In this document: positions 43,345-54,275 of the stretch, piece after piece
Layout: every line of letters starts with the position of its first letter
Position numbering within the stretch: position 1 is the stretch's first letter
Source of the DNA: Candidatus Aegiribacteria sp. MLS_C
GTDB taxonomy: Bacteria; Fermentibacterota; Fermentibacteria; Fermentibacterales; JCC-6
DNA: 54,275 bases
Direction: 5' to 3'
Assembly (NCBI GenBank): GCA_002030045.1
Contig: LQBI01000009.1
Coordinates: 1-54,275 of the forward strand
The notes under the pieces: model-generated
What the model saw: the letters and a program-made list of their open reading frames with translations, nothing else
What the model was told of the DNA's origin: nothing
The model's database searches: none
Position numbers and translations under genes: made by a program

Positions 43345-44676
43345 TTGGTCTGCCGCAGCAGGAGCCTGGACGGCCGGGAGTGCCGTTCCGAAGTATGCAT
43401 GATAGTCAAGAACCAGCTCTGGAACGATGCCAGGGTCAAGAAGGAAGCCTCGACCCTGAAGAGGATGGGCCTGTCGGTCACGATAATCGCCTATCCCGAG
43501 GAGGGCCGTCCGGAGAGCGAGGTCTGGAACAATGTTCAGGTGCTGCGCGTGCCGAGGTCCGGAGCGCTCAAGGCCAGGCTCAGGAAGGCCCTGGATTCCT
43601 GCGAGGAGGACGACAGGGGGCTTCTGCGCCGCATGGTGGCCGCTCTCAGGCACAATCCGATGAAGAAGTTCCTGGGTCTGCTGTTCCACTCTCTCCTCTA
43701 CCAGGCCAGGCTCCTCAGGCACGCCCTGGCCACGGGAGCCGAGGTGTTCCATTCACATGATCTGGACACTCTGCCGGTATGCGCGGCGGCGGCTTTCCTC
43801 ACCTCCGGAAAACTGGTGTACGATTCCCATGAACTGTGGCTGGAGAGCAGGAGGCACCTTCTGGAGACATCCAGGCCCTTCAGGGTCCTGGAGAAATGGA
43901 CCGAGGAGCTCATCGCACCCCTGGCCGACGCCGTCATCGCAGTAACCCCGGGAAGGGCCGGTATAATGCGGGAGATGTACCCGGACATGGCCGGGCCGGA
44001 CCTGGTTCCCAACTATCCCCCCATGATTCCCAGAATGAAGAAGAGCGGGGAGGTGCGCCGAAGCCTCGGCGCATGGGAGGAGCCATGCTTCGTGTTCCTC
44101 TACCAGGGCATCCTCGGGCTGCATCGAGGCCTTGAGGAGCTGGTGGATGCCGCTGCCATGCTTCGTGGCCTTCCTGTCCGCATAGCCCTGGTGGGCCACG
44201 ACAGGTCCCGCGGGGTCATTCCCGAGTACGCAGCGGAAAGGATGACTGCGGACGTGCTGACGTTCCATCCTCCGGTCCCGTCGGAGGACCTCCCGGGAAT
44301 AACCGCCTCGGCCGACTGCGGTCTGCTCCTATTCCAGGGGAGCTGTCTGAACCATACCTACTCCCTTCCCAACAAGCTCTTCGAGTACATGATGGCCGGC
44401 CTGCCCATAGTGGCCTGCGACCTGCCCGAGATATCCGCCGTAGTCCGCAGGCACCGCTGCGGAGTGCTGGTGGACGCCGGGGACCCCGCCTCCATAGCCG
44501 ATGGAATGAGGAGAGTAGCTGCGGACCCGGCAGGGGCAGCGGAGATGGGGATGAATGGATACCTTGCCGCCAGGGACCTCTATACCTGGCACAACTCGGC
44601 GCTTACCCTTCACGGCATCTACCAGAGGCTCCTGGGAAGGAGACTGCCGCTGCCCGGGCCGGGAGGGGCGGAATGA
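43345..44676 (+). CDS. Family 4-like (GT-B) glycosyltransferase
   Basis: A 443-residue glycosyltransferase that would transfer a sugar from a nucleotide donor. The frame begins at TTG 43345, with GGGAGG 9 nt upstream; no ATG fits. The N-domain has 'VCMIVKNQLWNDARVKKEA' and 'AEVFHSHDLDTLPVCAAAA'. The C-domain has 'FLYQGILGLHRGLEELVDAA' and 'GLLLFQGSCLNHTYSLPNKL', then 'FEYMMAGLPIVACDLPEISA', the classic E-x7-E-like GT4 donor site. Its stop overlaps the start of the next glycosyltransferase by 4 nt (ATGA). The two probably act in one pathway for a surface polysaccharide or lipid-linked glycan. Confidence 0.88.
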   Translation: MVCRSRSLDGRECRSEVCMIVKNQLWNDARVKKEASTLKRMGLSVTIIAYPEEGRPESEVWNNVQVLRVPRSGALKARLRKALDSCEEDDRGLLRRMVAALRHNPMKKFLGLLFHSLLYQARLLRHALATGAEVFHSHDLDTLPVCAAAAFLTSGKLVYDSHELWLESRRHLLETSRPFRVLEKWTEELIAPLADAVIAVTPGRAGIMREMYPDMAGPDLVPNYPPMIPRMKKSGEVRRSLGAWEEPCFVFLYQGILGLHRGLEELVDAAAMLRGLPVRIALVGHDRSRGVIPEYAAERMTADVLTFHPPVPSEDLPGITASADCGLLLFQGSCLNHTYSLPNKLFEYMMAGLPIVACDLPEISAVVRRHRCGVLVDAGDPASIADGMRRVAADPAGAAEMGMNGYLAARDLYTWHNSALTLHGIYQRLLGRRLPLPGPGGAE

Positions 44677-45956
44677 GAAGGCTGGTCTTCGTAGCGTACA
44701 CATTTCCTCCCGTATCCACGGGCTCGGCTCCAATGAACCTCCGGCTTGCCGACATCCTCGTCCGCAACGGATGGATGCCTTCCGTTGTGACCGCGGAGAG
44801 GACGGGCAGCATGCCAAGGGACCCCTCCCTGCTGGAACTCCTTCCGAAGGAGGTGCGGGTGATACGTACCGGAGGCACCGCCGCCAGGGGAAGCGGGCAG
44901 GCAGCCGGCAGGGGAGGGACCGTAACGGGCGCCGGGGGACGGAGGGGTTTGAGGAAGTTCGTCCTGGAGACGCTTCTGCAGCCGGACAGGTACGTAACCT
45001 GGCTGCCCGGTGCGGTTCCCGCCACCCTGGCGGAGATAGACAGGGTCGGCGCCGATCTTATAGTGACCCTGGGCCCTCCACATTCGGTCCATCTCACCGG
45101 CATGATCTGCTCCTTCCTGTCCGGCAGGCCATGGGTGGCCTACTTCGGCGACCTCTGGGCCCTGGATGGTTACGTCGACTGGAAGAACACCAGCTGGGTG
45201 CGGAGGAGGCTGACCCCCCTCATGGAGAGGGCGGTGGTGTCCGGAGCGGACGGAATAATCACCACCACCGAAGGTTCATCGGATTACTTCAGGAAGACCT
45301 ACGACCACGAGTGTCCTCCAGTCCAGACGCTCTGGAACGGAGTCCCGCTGGAGGAGAGGGAGATGCGGTGGAACCGCTCCGGAACAAGGGTACCTGAGGA
45401 CGACATAGTGATCACCTACACCGGTTTCTTCATGGGACTGCAGACGCCGGAGTACTTCCTCAGGGGGTTCAGGCTGTTCGTGAACAGGCACCCGGAGAGC
45501 CGGCTGCGGTTCAGGGTGGTCGGTGATTTCGGCGCCTTCTCCGATCTGCCCGGTGAGCTGGGTCTGACGGATCGTGTGGATATCCTCGGTACCGTTCCCT
45601 TCGCCGAGGTGAGGGAACTCCAGCTGGATTCCGACGTGCTCCTGCTGATTCTGCCGCCCCAGCCCGGGAACGAGCTCAAGAACCCGTCGAAGACCGTGGA
45701 GTATCTGCTGGCGCGCAGGCCGGTGCTGGCGGTGGCGCCGGAGGGGGACCTGACCGGACTGATAGAGAAGCTGGGAGCAGGCTACACCGCTTCCCACGAT
45801 CCCGAATCGGTCTGTTCCGCCATAGAGGAGATACACAGGGACCTGGCCGCCGGCAGGCACCGCATCCTCGGCGATCCATCGGACCTGGACGGCGAGATGG
45901 ACATGGACGCCGGCGGACGCCGAATTGCCGCCTTCCTGGACCGAATCTCCGAATAG
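44673..45956 (+). CDS. GT-B glycosyltransferase
   Basis: A 427-residue protein of the GT4-like fold. The N-terminus reads 'VFVAYTFPPVSTGSAPMNLR' (F-P-P...G/S motif of WcaI-type enzymes), with an acceptor-domain 'TLGPPHSVHLTGMI' and 'PWVAYFGDLWALDGYVDWKN'. The C-domain has 'ITYTGFFMGLQTPEYFLRGF' and 'LLLILPPQPGNELKNPSKTV', followed by 'EYLLARRPVLAVAPEGD', the donor-binding region. It is translationally coupled to the preceding glycosyltransferase. A lysine/glycine-rich insert near residues 70-90 is unusual but short. Confidence 0.87.
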   Translation: MRRLVFVAYTFPPVSTGSAPMNLRLADILVRNGWMPSVVTAERTGSMPRDPSLLELLPKEVRVIRTGGTAARGSGQAAGRGGTVTGAGGRRGLRKFVLETLLQPDRYVTWLPGAVPATLAEIDRVGADLIVTLGPPHSVHLTGMICSFLSGRPWVAYFGDLWALDGYVDWKNTSWVRRRLTPLMERAVVSGADGIITTTEGSSDYFRKTYDHECPPVQTLWNGVPLEEREMRWNRSGTRVPEDDIVITYTGFFMGLQTPEYFLRGFRLFVNRHPESRLRFRVVGDFGAFSDLPGELGLTDRVDILGTVPFAEVRELQLDSDVLLLILPPQPGNELKNPSKTVEYLLARRPVLAVAPEGDLTGLIEKLGAGYTASHDPESVCSAIEEIHRDLAAGRHRILGDPSDLDGEMDMDAGGRRIAAFLDRISE

Positions 45957-46126: not shown

Positions 46127-46798
46127 TTAAGGGGCCGTGCAGTCCGTACCATGCCCCGCGGCCGCAAGGCGCTTCAACTCATGGAGTTCCCTCATTCGCT
46201 GCGGGTAGGGCACTCCCTTCAACCCCGAGGAGAGGGTCAGGCAGCTGTAGCCTGTACGGTAACGGAGCACCTGCTCACCGATGCAGTTGCTGTCGAGGTA
46301 ACGCAACTCGTAACCGCTTTTCGGAAGAGCGGACATGCCGGTGACGACTACGGCATGGGCGTCCAGTCCGGGTGTCTGGAACTTTGCATAGACCAAGCCC
46401 TGGGAACTCAGATCGAAGAGGGCGTCCATGCGGGCTTTCATACTGCAGGGGTCCAGTCCGGACGCTCCTGCGAGACCGTCGATCCAGGCGAACAGGAAGA
46501 CTCCCTCGAGTATCTGGCGCCTCTCCAGTACACGCTGAATCTCATGATGGTACTCGGCGGAGAAATCCCTCAGGCATGAGAAGCCGGGAATGCAGGTCAC
46601 GGCGGAAGCACCCATGATACATGAAATCATCCTGCGTGCCTCCGCCCTGGACGGGGGAGGGCGGTCAGGATAGAAGCGGGCCAGGTAGAGGGCGTTCCTG
46701 GTGAACCTGGAGTACCACCAGCACACGCCCTTGCCAAGCAGGCCGCCGTGGTTCCTGAACCCGAGCAGATCGCGAGCCGCCAGCGGACCTCCGTCCAT
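46127..46798 (-). CDS. Papain-like Cys/His/Asn protein of unknown function
   Basis: A 223-residue protein with AGAGGCG 6-7 nt upstream of ATG 46798. I do not recognise the family. Three features appear in the order of a papain-fold active site: Cys26 in 'GLLGKGVCWWYSRFTR', His148 in 'GLDAHAVVVTGMSALP' and Asn171 in 'YELRYLDSNCIGEQVL'. The Gly-x-Cys-Trp-Trp and Leu-Asp-Ser-Asn contexts resemble C39/C70-like or transglutaminase-like enzymes. No signal peptide is present. Several other Cys residues (60, 69, 75, 118, 172) occur. It is divergently transcribed from the radical SAM gene, which suggests functional linkage, perhaps as a peptidase or cyclase of a modified peptide. This is an inference. 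Confidence 0.6.
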   Translation of the reverse strand: MDGGPLAARDLLGFRNHGGLLGKGVCWWYSRFTRNALYLARFYPDRPPPSRAEARRMISCIMGASAVTCIPGFSCLRDFSAEYHHEIQRVLERRQILEGVFLFAWIDGLAGASGLDPCSMKARMDALFDLSSQGLVYAKFQTPGLDAHAVVVTGMSALPKSGYELRYLDSNCIGEQVLRYRTGYSCLTLSSGLKGVPYPQRMRELHELKRLAAAGHGTDCTAP

Positions 46799-46996
46799 TT
46801 GGCACGCCTCTCTTCCTGAGTGGGGTACAAGCGTCGACGGATCCTTATATACTGGATACGATTAATTGAGAGAATGCAGACCGGAAAGGAAGCCGTCGAA
46901 CAGGATCCAATTAGGAAGGCAGGCGAGGACTGCGGCGGCGGGAGGTGACGTGCAGCCGGCGGAGAGCAGGGGAGGCCGGCTCGAAAACCGCTGTCA

Positions 46997-47140
46997 GACC
47001 GTGGTGAACGCTATACGCTGTCCGGCAGCATATCGAGGTCATTCTACGGGGACCCCGACCGCTGCAGGTGGATCTTCGGGATCGTCTGCCCGATGCTCCG
47101 GGATCCGGATCGAATGCTTAATGGGAAGGACACGGGCAGG
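46997..47140 (+). pseudogene. LysM-domain-like remnant
   Basis: In the frame of the downstream radical SAM gene, the sequence reads 'GERYTLSGSISRSFYGDPDR' followed by 'RWIFGIVCPMLRDPDRMLNG', closely following the LysM pattern as I know it ('YTV..GDTLWSIS..FYGDP..W..I...N...I.DPD.I.PG'). The G-D-T-L turn is deleted and the end is damaged. There is no start codon (frame closed by TGA at 46946-46948) and no ribosome site. It is probably the 3' end of a lost peptidoglycan-binding gene. The frame stays open into the radical SAM gene, but that gene has its own ribosome site. Confidence 0.45.
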
Positions 47141-47317
47141 CTCCGGCAGTCCCGGAAACCGTGCCGGCCTGAGTTCCGAAGGAACATAAGGGATCTGCAC
47201 GGACTACTTTCCGGCAGAAATGGTCCGACCCATGACATAGCGTTATCATCACTGAAACCTGATCGCCGGGTGATAACGCCTGAACTGAGCGGCAACCGGA
47301 CCTGGAAGGGGAACGTC

Positions 47318-49579
47318 ATGGGCAGCTGCAGTATGACGGGTTCGCACAGGATTCGCGGTGCAGGCGATTTCTTCCGGGAGCATGGGTACACGGAAAAACC
47401 TCGCCTGGTACAGTGGTTCGCCACTCTCAAGTGCGGCATGGACTGCCCTCACTGTCTTGCGGCAACTGAATCCAGCGGTTTCGACGACATGAGCATAGGT
47501 GATGTATTCCGTCTCCTTGAACAGGTCTCCGATATGGGTGTCGAAGAGTTCCTGGTGACGGGGGGAGAACCCCTGGCCCGGGCGGACCTTCCCGAGGTCC
47601 TGCAGCGTATCGGTGAACTGGGCATAGTATGGTCGCTGAATACCGCGACAACGCCTTCACCTGCCCAGAGAAAAGCTCTTGAAAAACATCCCCCCGCCTT
47701 CGTAGCTGTCAGCGTGGACGGACCACGGGAGGTCCACGACAGCTTCAGGGGGAAACGGGGCGCCTTTGAGGAAGCGCGGGATGCCATCTCGTATTTCTCT
47801 TCCCTGGGTTCCTTCGTCTGCGCCGGAACAACCGTGACCTCCTTCAATTTCCCGCACCTGGAAGAGACCTTCGGCGTTGTCCTGTCCTGCGGTGCGGACC
47901 GCTGGGGAATCCACCTTCCGGTCCCCGAGGGGAGAGCTTCAGCCAGGCGCGACCTGTTCCTGTCCCGAAAACAGCTCAGGCGACTTATCGGCTTCGTGGC
48001 GAGGAAAAGGAAGTACTTCGACGTGGAGATGGCGGACGAGATCGGTTATCTGGGTCACCTGGAGCCTCTGGTGAGGGAGCGGCCGCTCATCTGCGGCGCG
48101 GGCAGGTCCCAGTGCGTCGTTCTCCCGGACGGCTCGGTGATGCCGTGTACGACACTGGACAGGCGCTTCAGTGCCGGTAACTGCCTTGAATCGGCTCTCG
48201 CGGACATCTGGAGGAACGGTTTTCAGGAGCTGAGGAACTGGCAGCCTGAGGGACGGTGTCTTGAGTGCAGGTATTCCCCCGCGTGCAGGGGCGGCTGCTG
48301 GCTGCAGAGGAAATCGGGCCGGCACTGCTACAGAGACGTATGGAGCACGCCCGACGCGCTCATTTCAAGGGTGGGGGCAGCGGTCTGCCTGGGATTGGCT
48401 TCTCTCCTTCCTCCCGCGGCGATTGCTTCGGATCCTCCAGCAGATCAGGCTGAGCCGCCCTCTGCCAGGGTCCAGGTCACGGGTTCGTTCGAGGAAGCCA
48501 TCACCTCCATTTACACCGCCATCTTGACGAGAACGGACATCCCCGTGATAGAGGTACCGGAGACGCAGGATCCGGGATGGCTTTTCATTGATCGTTTCGC
48601 CCGGGAGGAGATGCCCGCCGGGATCCGCGAGAGATGCCTACTTGTCCGTGAGGCACTGGAGACGGAAAGCCGGTCACTTTCCCTGGTGGCCCTCATGTGG
48701 CGCGTCCTCAGCGAGGAAATGCTGGATGGAGGATTAGAACTGCAGGACCTTCAGGGACAGGGGAGGTCACTGTACATAGAGACGATGGAACTGCTCCGCC
48801 AGGCTTCGGTTGAGTGGAGGCCCGAGTTCGTCAGGTCCAGTCTACTTCCCTTCGTGGAGCGGGGCGGGCTGTTCGAGGTCCCCTTCTCCATGTTGAGCAA
48901 GGCGGGTCCAAGGCCTGGACAGATGGAGGAGCATACACTGACAAGGGACCTGGCCCTGGAACGGCTGGAAGGTCTGCTGGGTCCCGACAGTACTTCTATT
49001 CAGATGGAATACCTTCATCTCCATCCCTTTGCCGGGAACATGATCCTCCGAATCCAGCGCGGCAATACGGGCAACCTGTTCCTGCAGAGGTCCTTGGCCG
49101 GTACCAGGGAGAGCAATCTGGAGAACGATGAAGTGCTGAACGTCGGCGTGTTCGACAGGGTCTCACCCGGCCGGGACGATGCCGGAATAAACCTGACCAT
49201 CACCTGCTGCCTCGCCGGCCGGGATCACTCCGCCATGGCTGATGATCCGGTGGCCGAGGGGGATGGCGCCGGAGAACTGCGTTTCGAGCTCAGCGCGACG
49301 CTTCAGGGAGGAAGGGAATACACCTATGCGGAACTGCTGCACGAGATACACGAGCAGAACGCCGCCCTTCTGGACGGGCTGGCGCTTGACTGGATAGCCG
49401 GCAGCGCAGTAACGGACGAGGGTGGGAAGATATGTGGAATAGTCGAGAACGAAGTCCTGCTCTGGCCCTCCATCAGGATACTGGCCGACGGGAGCGGAGA
49501 GCTGACCGCAGCCGGTATGGGCCGGGTGGAAACAGGCTTCCTGGCCCGTCTCAGGGACTGCGATATGTGGATGTTCTGA
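47318..49579 (+). CDS. Radical SAM/SPASM enzyme with a fused hydrophobic segment and unknown C-terminal domain
   Basis: A 753-residue protein. ATG 47318 has AAGGGG 6 nt upstream. The radical SAM core has Cys39-x3-Cys43-x2-Cys46 in 'LKCGMDCPHCLAA' and 'VTGGEPLARADL' (G-G-E-P SAM loop). The SPASM domain holds Cys259, Cys277, Cys314-x2-Cys317-x5-Cys323-x3-Cys327 and Cys337, the full set for two auxiliary clusters. Radical SAM/SPASM enzymes modify peptides (as in PqqE, AlbA and anSME). After residue 350 comes a hydrophobic stretch ('VGAAVCLGLASLLPPAAIA'), then ~380 residues with no motif I know. That part contains 'LHLHPFAGNMILRI' and 'GINLTITCCLAG' and ends '...CDMWMF'. It could be a membrane anchor or signal-like segment plus an exported domain. 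It is followed 37 bp later by a propeller lipoprotein gene. Confidence 0.8.
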   Translation: MGSCSMTGSHRIRGAGDFFREHGYTEKPRLVQWFATLKCGMDCPHCLAATESSGFDDMSIGDVFRLLEQVSDMGVEEFLVTGGEPLARADLPEVLQRIGELGIVWSLNTATTPSPAQRKALEKHPPAFVAVSVDGPREVHDSFRGKRGAFEEARDAISYFSSLGSFVCAGTTVTSFNFPHLEETFGVVLSCGADRWGIHLPVPEGRASARRDLFLSRKQLRRLIGFVARKRKYFDVEMADEIGYLGHLEPLVRERPLICGAGRSQCVVLPDGSVMPCTTLDRRFSAGNCLESALADIWRNGFQELRNWQPEGRCLECRYSPACRGGCWLQRKSGRHCYRDVWSTPDALISRVGAAVCLGLASLLPPAAIASDPPADQAEPPSARVQVTGSFEEAITSIYTAILTRTDIPVIEVPETQDPGWLFIDRFAREEMPAGIRERCLLVREALETESRSLSLVALMWRVLSEEMLDGGLELQDLQGQGRSLYIETMELLRQASVEWRPEFVRSSLLPFVERGGLFEVPFSMLSKAGPRPGQMEEHTLTRDLALERLEGLLGPDSTSIQMEYLHLHPFAGNMILRIQRGNTGNLFLQRSLAGTRESNLENDEVLNVGVFDRVSPGRDDAGINLTITCCLAGRDHSAMADDPVAEGDGAGELRFELSATLQGGREYTYAELLHEIHEQNAALLDGLALDWIAGSAVTDEGGKICGIVENEVLLWPSIRILADGSGELTAAGMGRVETGFLARLRDCDMWMF

Positions 49580-49615
49580 ATCACAGTGTGTGAATGAGGA
49601 TCGGAGGGGAACGAC

Positions 49616-50749
49616 TTGAAGAGAAAACCTGCAGTACTCTTATTATCGCTGATTGCGTGCACGGGCTGCGGAGATGGGACGGACGACCAGTACGGATCCG
49701 GCGCCGGCCCGGGCGCGATCGAACTGGCCATCACTGATACGGTCGGCGTGGAGCTGGGGGACTCGTGCTACGTGTTCGGATACCTTGCCGACGCGGCGCG
49801 GACCGACAGCATCATATACGCCCTGGACATGTCCCGTTCACAACTCCGGAAGTACACACCCGACGGAGAATGGGCCGGGTTCATAGGCGGAAGGGGTGAC
49901 GGTCCCGGCGAGCTGGTCATGCCCCACTGGCTCGCTCTGCTGCCCGACGGCTCCATACTGATCCAGGACATAACTGACCTCGGTCTCTATTCCCCGGACG
50001 GCGGATGGACAGGCCACGTCCTCACTCATTCCGGCAACTGGCCGTCGATGCATACCCCCCTTGGGAACGGCACCTTCGCCATAAGCTGGCACGAGTTCCT
50101 TCGCGAACCGGAGCACATTCTGCGCAGGTTCATAGCCTCCTACGACCTTCAGGGGGCGAAGATCACCGAGTACCTGGCCGATTCCATACGCGTTCCCGCG
50201 CCTCCCGAGGAGAACACCGACGCCATAAACCGATTCCTTTTCTCCCACTACATGGCAGGGGACCTGGACGGCAACCTCTACATCGTGACAAGGCATTCGC
50301 CCGATTACCGCATTGTCTGCTACGGACCCGACGCTTCACCCTTCGACACCCTCTCACTCGATGTCCCCGTGGTGGAGAGAACGGCGGAGGAGATCGGCCT
50401 GGTGAAGAGGTACACCGAGGAATACCTGCGCGGCATGGGTACGTCCAACGTCATGGAATGGGTCTACGAGCCTGACCCGTTCAAGCCCCCCATCAGCGGG
50501 ATCTGGCTGGGATGGGGCGGCAACCTCTGGGTGCTCAGGGGCAATACGGAGGTCCCGGAGTTCGACGTGTGGAGCGTGCCGGAAGGCGAGCTTCTCTACA
50601 CCGCCAGACTTGACCTTGAACTCCCGCCGACGCAGTTCCTGACCTTCTACATCGCTCCATGGTGCCGTGACTTCCTTGCGGTGCACGAGGACGAATCCAT
50701 GGTGCAGAGGCTCCTTCTGATCGACGCTTCGTATCCGGAAGGGGACTAG
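49616..50749 (+). CDS. 6-bladed beta-propeller lipoprotein, TTG start
   Basis: A 377-residue lipoprotein. The TTG at 49616 has GGAGG 8 nt upstream and opens M-K-R-K-P-A-V-L-L-L-S-L-I-A-C-T-G-C, with a lipobox at 'ACTGC'. The mature part starts with 'TDTVGVELGDSCYVFGYLAD' and has NHL/6-bladed blades ('YALDMSRSQLRKYTPDGEWA', 'LGWGGNLWVLRGNTEVPEFD'). It also has a 'GRGDGPGEL' loop that I associate with 6-bladed propeller lipoproteins of Bacteroidota. It is about 30-35% identical by eye to the next gene product. It probably shares the radical SAM transcript. Its role may be sensing or binding at the outer membrane. Confidence 0.85.
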   Translation: MKRKPAVLLLSLIACTGCGDGTDDQYGSGAGPGAIELAITDTVGVELGDSCYVFGYLADAARTDSIIYALDMSRSQLRKYTPDGEWAGFIGGRGDGPGELVMPHWLALLPDGSILIQDITDLGLYSPDGGWTGHVLTHSGNWPSMHTPLGNGTFAISWHEFLREPEHILRRFIASYDLQGAKITEYLADSIRVPAPPEENTDAINRFLFSHYMAGDLDGNLYIVTRHSPDYRIVCYGPDASPFDTLSLDVPVVERTAEEIGLVKRYTEEYLRGMGTSNVMEWVYEPDPFKPPISGIWLGWGGNLWVLRGNTEVPEFDVWSVPEGELLYTARLDLELPPTQFLTFYIAPWCRDFLAVHEDESMVQRLLLIDASYPEGD

Positions 50750-50790
50750 AGACCGGAATTCCCGCAGGACGGAGATCCAGTACCGGTTTT

Positions 50791-50818
50791 TTGCCGCTTT
50801 GCGTTTTTTGTCTATATA
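50791..50818 (+). promoter_or_regulatory. Possible promoter before the second propeller gene
   Basis: TTGCCG (50791-50796), 16 bp and TATATA (50813-50818), within an AT-rich patch with two T6 runs. The start would lie about 40 nt before ATG 50867. The -35 match is weak; the AT-rich island is clear. Confidence 0.35.
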
Positions 50819-50866
50819 TGGTGCGGTCCTGATTCCCAGTGAACAGATGGAGGGTAGTCCAGCACC

Positions 50867-51967
50867 ATGAGAATCATACTGGTTTCTTTCCTTGCAGTCG
50901 CTCTCGCAGGATGCGGCGGCGACGAGACGGCCGCGGTTGAGGCTTCACCGGCCTGCAGCCTGCGAGTGACCGATTCCATCGGGATCGAACTTGGTGATTC
51001 AGCCTACGTCTTCGGAGCGATCCTCGGCCTGGAGTTCATGCCCGGCGGCGGTTTCGCGGTCCTGGACAGGGCTGCGTGCAGCGTGCGGCTCTACGACGAT
51101 ACCGGTACACATGCCGGCACTATCAGCGGTCCGGGTTCCGGACCGGGGCAACTGGTTCTTCCCTACGGCCTGCTGGTATGGTCCAACGGAGACATCGGCA
51201 TCATCGATCCCTACCAGGGCGGCCTGCTCAAGTTCTCCAGTGAAGGGGAATACCTCGGTCTGGCTGCGGAGATGACGCACAACATCCCCTTCAATCCGAG
51301 GATGGCGGGCGACACCGCATTCGTGGCCTACAGGACGGAAACTGTCCAGGATGGTGACCGGGCCACCATCGAGGCTTTCCTGGGACGTTTTCCACTGTCC
51401 TGGGAACCGTCCCACAAGTACGTCTCGAACAGCATACCCTTAGATCCGGAGACCCTTGCGGGCTTCCTGCTCGAGGTCTTCTTCTACTCGCAATGGACCG
51501 TCGACCGGGAAAGAGGAGTTGTCTACGCCGCGCCCTTCGACCATGGCAGGTACCGCATCCTCGCCTTTCCTGCAGGAGGAGGAGAGCCCTCGGTGATCGA
51601 GATGGAGACAGAACCCGTTCCGAAGACGGAGGAGGAGATCCGTCTGGAGCGGGCCTACATTGAAGAGTACCTTACCACGGCGGAGGGCGGCGAGCCTGCA
51701 TACGACGTCAGCTGCGATCCATGGCCCTTCCACCTCCCCATAGCCGGTATGGAGGCCGACGACAGAGGCAACCTCTGGGTGCTCAGAGGTGACAGGGACG
51801 AGGTCTTCTTCGACGTCTGGGATTCCGACGGCAGGTTCGTTCGAAACTGCGTCCTTCCGGGATTTCCCGCCGGCGACCTTAGATACAGGATACGGGGTGA
51901 CCTGATGCTGCTCTACGAGGAGAACCCGGAGAACTACCAGAAGATCTACTTCATCGCGATCAATTAG
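50867..51967 (+). CDS. 6-bladed beta-propeller lipoprotein
   Basis: A 366-residue paralogue of the previous gene product. The signal peptide is M-R-I-I-L-V-S-F-L-A-V-A-L-A-G-C, with a lipobox Cys at 16. Shared landmarks are 'TDSIGIELGDSAYVFGA', 'SGPGSGPGQLVLPYGLLV', 'RLERAYIEEYLTTAEGG', 'PFHLPIAGMEADDRGNLWVL' and 'RGDRDEVFFDVWDSDGR'. The upstream gene has the same order of motifs, including 'KRYTEEYLRGM' and 'GGNLWVLRGN'. It ends 'IYFIAIN'. Its stop codon shares bases with the inverted repeat of the AT-rich element. The ribosome site GGAGGG is 12 nt away, rather far. Confidence 0.85.
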   Translation: MRIILVSFLAVALAGCGGDETAAVEASPACSLRVTDSIGIELGDSAYVFGAILGLEFMPGGGFAVLDRAACSVRLYDDTGTHAGTISGPGSGPGQLVLPYGLLVWSNGDIGIIDPYQGGLLKFSSEGEYLGLAAEMTHNIPFNPRMAGDTAFVAYRTETVQDGDRATIEAFLGRFPLSWEPSHKYVSNSIPLDPETLAGFLLEVFFYSQWTVDRERGVVYAAPFDHGRYRILAFPAGGGEPSVIEMETEPVPKTEEEIRLERAYIEEYLTTAEGGEPAYDVSCDPWPFHLPIAGMEADDRGNLWVLRGDRDEVFFDVWDSDGRFVRNCVLPGFPAGDLRYRIRGDLMLLYEENPENYQKIYFIAIN

Positions 51968-52913: not shown

Positions 52914-53930
52914 CTACTTCAGCACGACCAGGCTGGTGTTCGCCGTCATTCCCGAACCGGTTACCAGCCTTACTATATAGATACCGGACGAGGGCAGTTC
53001 GAATGTCTCCTCGTGCCCGTTCAGTGCCGGCACGCCTGCCACCTGTCTTCCCGAGAGGTCGTAGACCGAGATGTACCCGCCGGTCTCGTCAGGCAGGACT
53101 GGAGTGACCATTATAGTGCCGTTCGAGGGGTTCGGCCCTGCGACCAGGTCCGGCTGGACTGGCGCTTCCGCGCCGCCCTCGATACCGGTCATCAGGTCCA
53201 TGAACTTGTACCACCGGGCGTTGAGGACCTCCTTGTCCGCACTGGTGTACTTCTGCACGAAGACGGCAAGGTACAGGTTGTCGGAGACCCAGCTGGATAT
53301 GTCGTAATCCGCCTGGAAGTATACCGTGTCGGGATAGGGGGCCTGGAACTCGACCAGCGGTCCCGCAACTCCGAAGAGATTGTCCCTGAAGGCCTGCTCG
53401 AAGTAGGAACCGGCCCAGTACTGCACTCCGGGCACCTGGTCCTCCACGATGGTGGCGAACAGGCGTATCGGGTCGGTGAGTCCAAGGTCCTCCTCGGCCA
53501 CGAGCCCTATGCTCACGTTGCCGGTCTGGTCATCGCCGTTCCGGGCAACGAATATGTCCAGGTAGGAAGGTACGCCGATCCGGCTGCTCAGGGCGGATTC
53601 CAGGCCCGGACCGCTGCTGGAGGCATGTATCTTGCCATCCACCTGTACCCAGGGCACGCCGTTCACCCCGTAGGCGCTCTTCCTTGCGTTCTGCTCGGTG
53701 GGATTGGCCTGGTATATGGGATCATTCGCATAAGGCCAGTTCACATGAACCCTTATTACGGCGATCTCCCCGGAAGCAAGGTGGGTGTTGACGAATCCAT
53801 TGAGCGCGGGTTCGAAGTTCCAGCAGTAACTGCATCCGCAGTTGGTAAAATCCTCGATGAGCACGACCCTCTCCGCTCCGAATACCGGAACGGCCAGCAG
53901 GATAACGATTGATACGAACAGTAACCTCAT
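52914..53930 (-). CDS. Omp28-like thioredoxin-fold exported protein with sorting tail
   Basis: A 338-residue protein with signal peptide M-R-L-L-F-V-S-I-V-I-L-L-A-V-P-V-F-G and a thioredoxin-like start 'VVLIEDFTNCGCSYC' (Cys31, 33, 36) as in Omp28-related proteins. It continues 'GVNGVPWVQVDGK', the cis-Pro loop. The C-terminal ~85 residues are a sorting tail ('VAGPNPSNGTIMVTP', 'SVYDLSGRQVAGV', ending 'NTSLVVLK'). The redox role is uncertain; Omp28 proteins are surface antigens in Porphyromonas. A ~95 bp gap separates it from the DUF554 gene. Confidence 0.85.
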   Translation of the reverse strand: MRLLFVSIVILLAVPVFGAERVVLIEDFTNCGCSYCWNFEPALNGFVNTHLASGEIAVIRVHVNWPYANDPIYQANPTEQNARKSAYGVNGVPWVQVDGKIHASSSGPGLESALSSRIGVPSYLDIFVARNGDDQTGNVSIGLVAEEDLGLTDPIRLFATIVEDQVPGVQYWAGSYFEQAFRDNLFGVAGPLVEFQAPYPDTVYFQADYDISSWVSDNLYLAVFVQKYTSADKEVLNARWYKFMDLMTGIEGGAEAPVQPDLVAGPNPSNGTIMVTPVLPDETGGYISVYDLSGRQVAGVPALNGHEETFELPSSGIYIVRLVTGSGMTANTSLVVLK

Positions 53931-54056: not shown

Positions 54057-54275
54057 TCATTGTTCCAGCCGAAGAATGAAAACCTGCTGGAACAGCTCCG
54101 GGTTGCTGGAGAATGCGGCCATTCCCTCGGGTTCTATTGTGAAGCTCCAGAACTGGCCGGCATCCCCTACCCCCGGCACACGGGCCGTGAAGAGGTGCTC
54201 CCCTTCTGGAGAGAATCCCTCGAAGACGGGCTCGAGCTCCGTCCCCCTGCGCGCCCAAAGCCTTCCCTGGGAATC
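54057..54275 (-). CDS. 6-bladed beta-propeller protein, 5' end outside the window
   Basis: The last 72 codons of a gene that enters from the right edge: 'DSQGRLWARRGTELEPVFEG', 'FSPEGEHLFTARVPGVGD' and an end 'ELFQQVFILRLEQ'. The 'D..G.LW..RG......' plus 'F...G' pattern matches the final blades of the propeller lipoproteins at 49616-51967, so it is probably a third member of that family. The start is not visible. Confidence 0.6.
   Translation of the reverse strand, partial: DSQGRLWARRGTELEPVFEGFSPEGEHLFTARVPGVGDAGQFWSFTIEPEGMAAFSSNPELFQQVFILRLEQ

Follow-up and report, generated by a model that had tools for sequence, protein, structure and literature searches.

We have found that the window analysed here, a complete contig of 54,275 nucleotides from a parent assembly of 2.98 Mb (genome G000), encodes a 753-aa enzyme (P0002; 47318-49579, forward strand) in which a radical SAM/SPASM catalytic half is fused, within a single ORF and with orthologues elsewhere, to a previously undescribed C-terminal domain (CTD). 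It is normally a precursor peptide encoded nearby that leads to the discovery of radical SAM/SPASM enzymes; the fused family has no such peptide, and carries its own large undescribed domain, which is conserved in two phyla and has an invariant C-terminus. Since no stable partner or precursor was found, the fusion is permanent and the motifs of the CTD are conserved, we tentatively favour the reading, which seems to us to fall somewhat short of probable, that the enzyme is self-contained, its CTD acting in cis as the source or the presenter of a protein or peptide substrate. The finding centres on this single protein, not on a gene system. Should the CTD be the substrate or its presenter, the modification would be detectable directly by mass spectrometry on one recombinant protein.

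The catalytic half, a radical SAM core followed by a SPASM domain, occupies residues 28-340 (47399-48337, forward strand). In an alignment of 14 loci the radical SAM cluster motif C39-x3-C43-x2-C46 was intact, and all seven SPASM cysteines (259, 277, 314, 317, 323, 327 and 337) fell in invariant or near-invariant columns, arranged as C259, G272-x4-C277, C314-x2-C317-x5-C323-x3-C327 and C337. Pfam matched Radical_SAM PF04055 (6e-15, 56.2 bits against a cut-off of 29.5) and SPASM PF13186 (8e-10, 39.2 bits against 21.5). As judged from its sequence, the enzyme can be assigned to the radical SAM superfamily, having CxxxCxxC and PF04055 above cut-off, and to the SPASM subfamily, having the pattern C-x9-15-G-x4-C - C-x2-C-x5-C-x3-C - C and PF13186 above cut-off. 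An RNA family search gave no match, and a search for a link to defence systems gave nothing beyond a generic viperin-like radical SAM match. The catalytic half is followed by a moderately hydrophobic linker (residues 341-371; 48338-48430), in which C357-L358-G359 is invariant across the 14 loci. The hydrophobic segment described in the sequence-only reading is real in the window copy (mean Kyte-Doolittle 1.93) and in G036, the only two genomes with a clearly hydrophobic linker, whereas most orthologues show a modest 1.1-1.6; an internal signal peptide, a membrane anchor or export of the CTD is thus at most a candidate role for it. The roughly 380 extra residues of the divergent radical SAM/SPASM enzyme, described in the same reading, proved to be part of a real fusion that is conserved in both phyla.

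The CTD comprises 382 residues (372-753; 48431-49576, forward strand). Pfam recognised no domain past residue 317 of the 753-aa enzyme, and the CTD itself had no credible family match in Pfam, NCBIfam or PHROG and no credible match to the PDB by sequence; a fold search, whose query was a moderate-confidence model, also gave nothing credible (best E 0.29). The isolated-domain model had a mean pLDDT of 70, and the alignment behind it was shallow, with 16 sequences. Among close relatives the dN/dS of the CTD was 0.29-0.45, as against 0.10-0.22 for the catalytic half, leading to the conclusion that the CTD is a real domain under purifying selection. Three islands are conserved between divergent copies. 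The first, RC..V..A..T...SLSL.AL.WR, lies around residues 438-463. The second, SKAGPRxG..E...L..DL..ER (residues 527-549), belongs to motif 1, PF..xSKAGPRxGxxExxxLxxDLxxER (residues 521-549; 48878-48964), in which 13 of 25 residues are invariant among five divergent copies, a figure equalled by 20 of 5000 shuffles. Motif 1 sits within a low-confidence stretch of the model (pLDDT <50 at CTD residues 146-187), as would be expected of a motif that contacts the catalytic half or the substrate, but its "unfolded" look may be caused by the shallow alignment instead. The third island, the tail D-x-W-M-F (residues 749-753; 49562-49576), stands immediately before the stop codon and is kept in every copy that reaches one. 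Other proteins with this tail were considered as candidate substrates in trans and rejected, as no other gene of the phylum was found to end in D-x-W-M-F; the extra exact matches were only on the opposite strand of kinase or regulator genes, or in a gene cut by a contig end (G018). In one genome (G033, L066:4383-5159) a stretch similar to the end of a secretion tail is attached to the C-terminal half of the CTD, through either a chimeric assembly or a real rearrangement.

Full-length or partial orthologues of the fused enzyme were found in 19 of the 42 genomes analysed from the phylum (that of Ca. Fermentibacteria, Aegiribacteria and Sabulitectum), 18 of them through the CTD and one, G018, through its last codons only, at a contig end. 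The same architecture is present in more than 10 further loci of the phylum and in one Phycisphaerales MAG. A range scan of 84,980 species, one genome each, which was seeded by conserved motifs so that divergent relatives could be missed, yielded 17 relatives, comprising Fermentibacterota, the Phycisphaerales MAG UBA2218 and a remnant in CP070782.1. The UBA2218 copy is full-length, with 788 residues (L105, 656-3022). The Phycisphaerales chromosome CP070782.1 (L114:7842-8309) holds a decayed CTD that lacks a credible start and ends in KEIDFWMF, and is therefore evidence of former presence followed by loss. In two trees the fused copies formed one clade (support 100/100 and 99/99). Contigs break off within the fused gene in seven genomes (G001:C66/C67, G007:C272, G013:C69/C82, G018:C123, G025:C17, G029:C26/C36 and G036:C312), and in four more (G006, G010, G014 and G017) they end within about 1.6 kb of it. 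By a rough estimate, contig ends in or near the fused gene are commoner than contig numbers suggest, and the locus may contain repeats or vary between strains.

In the mechanism that we propose, the radical SAM/SPASM half (28-340), which is permanently fused via the Cys357-Leu-Gly linker to the CTD as one self-contained protein, would modify a protein or peptide substrate by radical chemistry. The CTD would cooperate with this half in cis, or between the subunits of a dimer, and might either hold the modified residues itself or present the substrate, with the SKAGPRxG..E...L..DL..ER motif and the invariant D-x-W-M-F C-terminus as candidate contact points. This reading draws on the single ORF with its intact Cx3Cx2C and seven-Cys SPASM, on the architecture common to the phylum loci and the Phycisphaerales MAG together with the Phycisphaerales remnant, on the single clade of fused copies, on the purifying selection acting on the CTD, on its conserved islands and tail, with motif 1 in a low-confidence stretch of the model, and on the lack of any stable neighbour, common small ORF or second gene of the phylum with the same tail. 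On the other hand, a folded domain of 380 residues is unlike a typical RiPP precursor, and the model of the CTD is a moderate one, so that the "unfolded motif" may reflect the 16-sequence alignment behind it.

In its strong form, this reading makes the CTD the substrate itself: the WMF tail or the SKAGPR motif would be modified by the protein's own radical SAM half, and the modified CTD perhaps then released, by analogy with the fungal borosins, in which a precursor fused to its own methyltransferase is auto-modified (PMC11285071). The permanent fusion, the lack of a precursor in trans, the invariant tail, the conserved motif that appears unfolded in the model and the borosin precedent are all consistent with such self-modification. 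We nevertheless regard it as unlikely: purifying selection acts on the CTD, which is a large and mostly folded domain in which no cleavage site was seen, and no radical SAM precedent turned up in the papers searched. There is accordingly only a minor chance that the catalytic half would install a radical cross-link or cofactor in the CTD, making the protein a radical SAM counterpart of the borosins.

It is also conceivable, although somewhat unlikely, that the fused enzyme acts on a tetrapyrrole, a sugar nucleotide or another metabolite, with the CTD binding the metabolite or anchoring the enzyme. Two SPASM enzymes that modify peptides, PqqE and SkfB, are among the nearest homologues of solved structure, as judged by sequence, which favours a protein or peptide target and with it the CTD-in-cis reading, but the best PDB sequence match is a small-molecule enzyme, the cytosylglucuronate decarboxylase BlsE, and the NCBIfam runners-up AhbD, NirJ2 and MftC, which are haem-synthesis and cofactor enzymes, score close behind the best match. 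It is because of these scores that a small-molecule role has to be taken seriously, and the fact that no peptide partner was found also agrees with it. Against this, no pathway genes are kept beside the enzyme gene in relatives, and the CTD has no recognised ligand-binding or catalytic fold.

In the sequence-only reading the enzyme had been part of a four-gene system, together with a papain-like protein and two propeller lipoproteins. All four ORFs are present at the positions given for them. The Cys protein (P0001, 223 aa; 46127-46798, reverse strand) is separated from the enzyme by a divergent gap of 519 bp (46799-47317), and the enzyme stop codon lies 37 bases before the start of lipoprotein 1, which has a good ribosome-binding site. 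A system in which the Cys protein serves as a processing protease could call on the adjacency of the four genes in the window and on the closest relative, G006, where the Cys gene, the enzyme and a relative of the first propeller are found together, in the order glycosyltransferase, glycosyltransferase, Cys gene, enzyme, small gene, propeller. Examination of relatives, however, showed that the genes separate. The Cys gene is present in nine of the 42 genomes of the phylum and the enzyme in 19, and both occur, and adjoin one another, only in G000 and G006; seven of the nine Cys-gene genomes lack the enzyme and 17 of the 19 enzyme genomes lack the Cys gene. Their co-occurrence is no commoner than chance (Fisher greater p = 0.98; less p = 0.12). 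In G004, a genome 98% complete, the fused enzyme is absent and the Cys gene accompanies only the two glycosyltransferase genes, which in the window lie at 43399-44676 and 44673-45956 (forward strand) and adjoin the Cys gene in G006 as well. Such a separation in relatives is the outcome that the sequence-only reading had itself named as refuting the system. The four-gene system was thus rejected, and we consider it scarcely credible; the Cys gene and the two propeller genes are separate from the enzyme gene, and their position beside it here is coincidental. Arguments from gene neighbourhood in one genome can point to systems that are not upheld once relatives are compared.

The Cys protein is of interest in its own right. 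Cys26, His148, Asp169 and Asn171 are invariant in nine homologues and stand in papain order, so that a Cys-His-Asn/Asp triad can be proposed from the sequence; the motifs include an invariant GVCWW at a helix start, an invariant DAH at a strand and LDSN. In the model (pLDDT 68) the Cys precedes a helix and the His begins a strand. The top two Foldseek matches were staphopains, with probabilities of 0.96 and 0.90 at E-values of 0.07 and 0.10 that are not significant; for staphopain 1cv8 (probability 0.96) E was 0.066 and TM 0.26. P0001 matched no family in Pfam, NCBIfam, PADLOC or PHROGs, and strong matches were confined to the phylum among 385 genomes sampled outward. Elsewhere the gene has unrelated neighbours, such as cation transporter-like and M20 peptidase-like genes (names from sequence inspection). 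The residues named earlier for this protein thus hold, while the papain fold attributed to it is weakly supported (staphopain E 0.07). Like the papain-like proteases, P0001 has their motif order and staphopains as its top two fold matches; it differs from them in having no sequence family match and in the weakness of its fold match. A papain-like protein is plausibly the best reading, and we presume it to be comparable with the C58-type papain-like proteins.

Lipoprotein 1 (P0003, 377 aa, TTG start; 49616-50749) and lipoprotein 2 (P0004, 366 aa; 50867-51967), both on the forward strand, are paralogues with 31% identity (E 2.5e-33), as had been claimed, and the 37-bp spacing behind the enzyme was also borne out. 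Their six blades are plausible only, because the match to DUF5128, the 6-bladed propeller family, is below its cut-off of 22.9 bits (12.6 for P0003 and 17.9 for P0004), so that on these scores the two would not be counted as members. The family, to which lipoprotein 2 also belongs, is multicopy, with eight matches to one lipoprotein in the window's genome, query included. A further propeller-lipoprotein fragment lies at 54057-54275 (reverse strand) and runs past the contig end. The gene at 52914-53930 (reverse strand) encodes an Omp28-like protein whose match to the T9SS type A sorting domain reaches 36.3 bits against a cut-off of 23, which suggests, from sequence, a type IX-like secretion system in the phylum. 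G000 and G006 are the only genomes in which propellers lie behind the enzyme on the same strand, and only in G006 is a close relative of lipoprotein 1 found downstream; in G005 a propeller relative lies 1.2 kb from the enzyme on the other strand. Several enzyme loci have little downstream flank, which limits the absence of propellers there.

It might be supposed that these lipoproteins are the substrates, as in a TIGR04133/TIGR04134-like enzyme-lipoprotein pair, a system known chiefly from Bacteroidota. The best NCBIfam match of the enzyme is indeed TIGR04133, "rSAM/lipoprotein system", and lipoprotein 1 starts 37 bp after it, with a relative downstream in G006. In addition, bona fide TIGR04133 members (502-506 bits) occur in the sister genus g5, in Sabulitectum-type genomes (L140:5215-7208, L141:5793-7783 and L144:168-2150), directly downstream of tandem TIGR04134-like lipoproteins, some of which score above the TIGR04134 cut-off and some just below. 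The fused enzyme, however, reaches 151 bits against a cut-off of 425, and the Phycisphaerales copy 166 bits; P0003, P0004 and the CTD gave no TIGR04134 match; the propellers are multicopy and do not lie downstream of the enzyme in other relatives; and a tree uniting the fused family with TIGR04133 was disfavoured (p-AU 0.032), a result of moderate weight given the long branches. The idea that the CTD is itself a fused TIGR04134-like lipoprotein was rejected, as a profile comparison with the phylum's own TIGR04134 lipoproteins gave no similarity (hhalign probability 0.1%). Because of the low score, the missing lipoprotein, the unrelated CTD and the tree, the fused family was not placed in TIGR04133, and lipoprotein substrates seem very unlikely. 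Nothing on TIGR04133 or its lipoproteins was found in the papers searched.

The earlier observation that no precursor peptide is visible was upheld, as the window locus and the main Aegiribacteria clade have no precursor-like small ORF in common within 1.5 kb of the enzyme. Small ORFs shared by the window locus and G006 do occur, but they overlie known neighbouring genes and are apparently shadow frames. One Aegiribacteria clade encodes, just upstream of the enzyme in nine loci (L052:7354-8310, L054:10335-11258, L056:7612-8535 and six others), a secreted protein of about 307 aa with a VHEWG motif (VHEWG protein), whose gene directly adjoins that of the enzyme in seven and is one gene removed in two. 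This protein had no family match and no similarity to the CTD, and the window's genome has two complete copies of the family, unlinked to the enzyme (L115:6169-7185 and L116:5185-6162). The VHEWG protein may be a partner specific to this clade, conceivably the true one in those nine loci, which would count against the CTD-in-cis reading, or its position may be plain synteny among close relatives.

Compared with known systems, the fused enzyme resembles TIGR04133/TIGR04134 in the best profile of its catalytic half, in the radical SAM-then-SPASM order and in its occurrence in the same phylum, but it scores far below the cut-off and has the CTD in place of a separate lipoprotein. With PqqE, SkfB, PapB and MftC, the SPASM peptide maturases and their relatives, it shares CxxxCxxC and a seven-Cys SPASM, and sequence similarity to PqqE and SkfB is detectable. 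Unlike these maturases, it has a large C-terminal extension and neither a nearby precursor peptide nor a PqqD-like domain (RRE) recognised by Pfam at E up to 1, a search that divergent RREs can escape; defined by an RRE domain and a nearby precursor peptide, RiPP maturases would thus probably not include it. Like the borosins (OphMA), the fused enzyme has enzyme and candidate substrate in one chain, but the borosin enzyme is of another class, a methyltransferase, and self-modification in the fused enzyme is putative.
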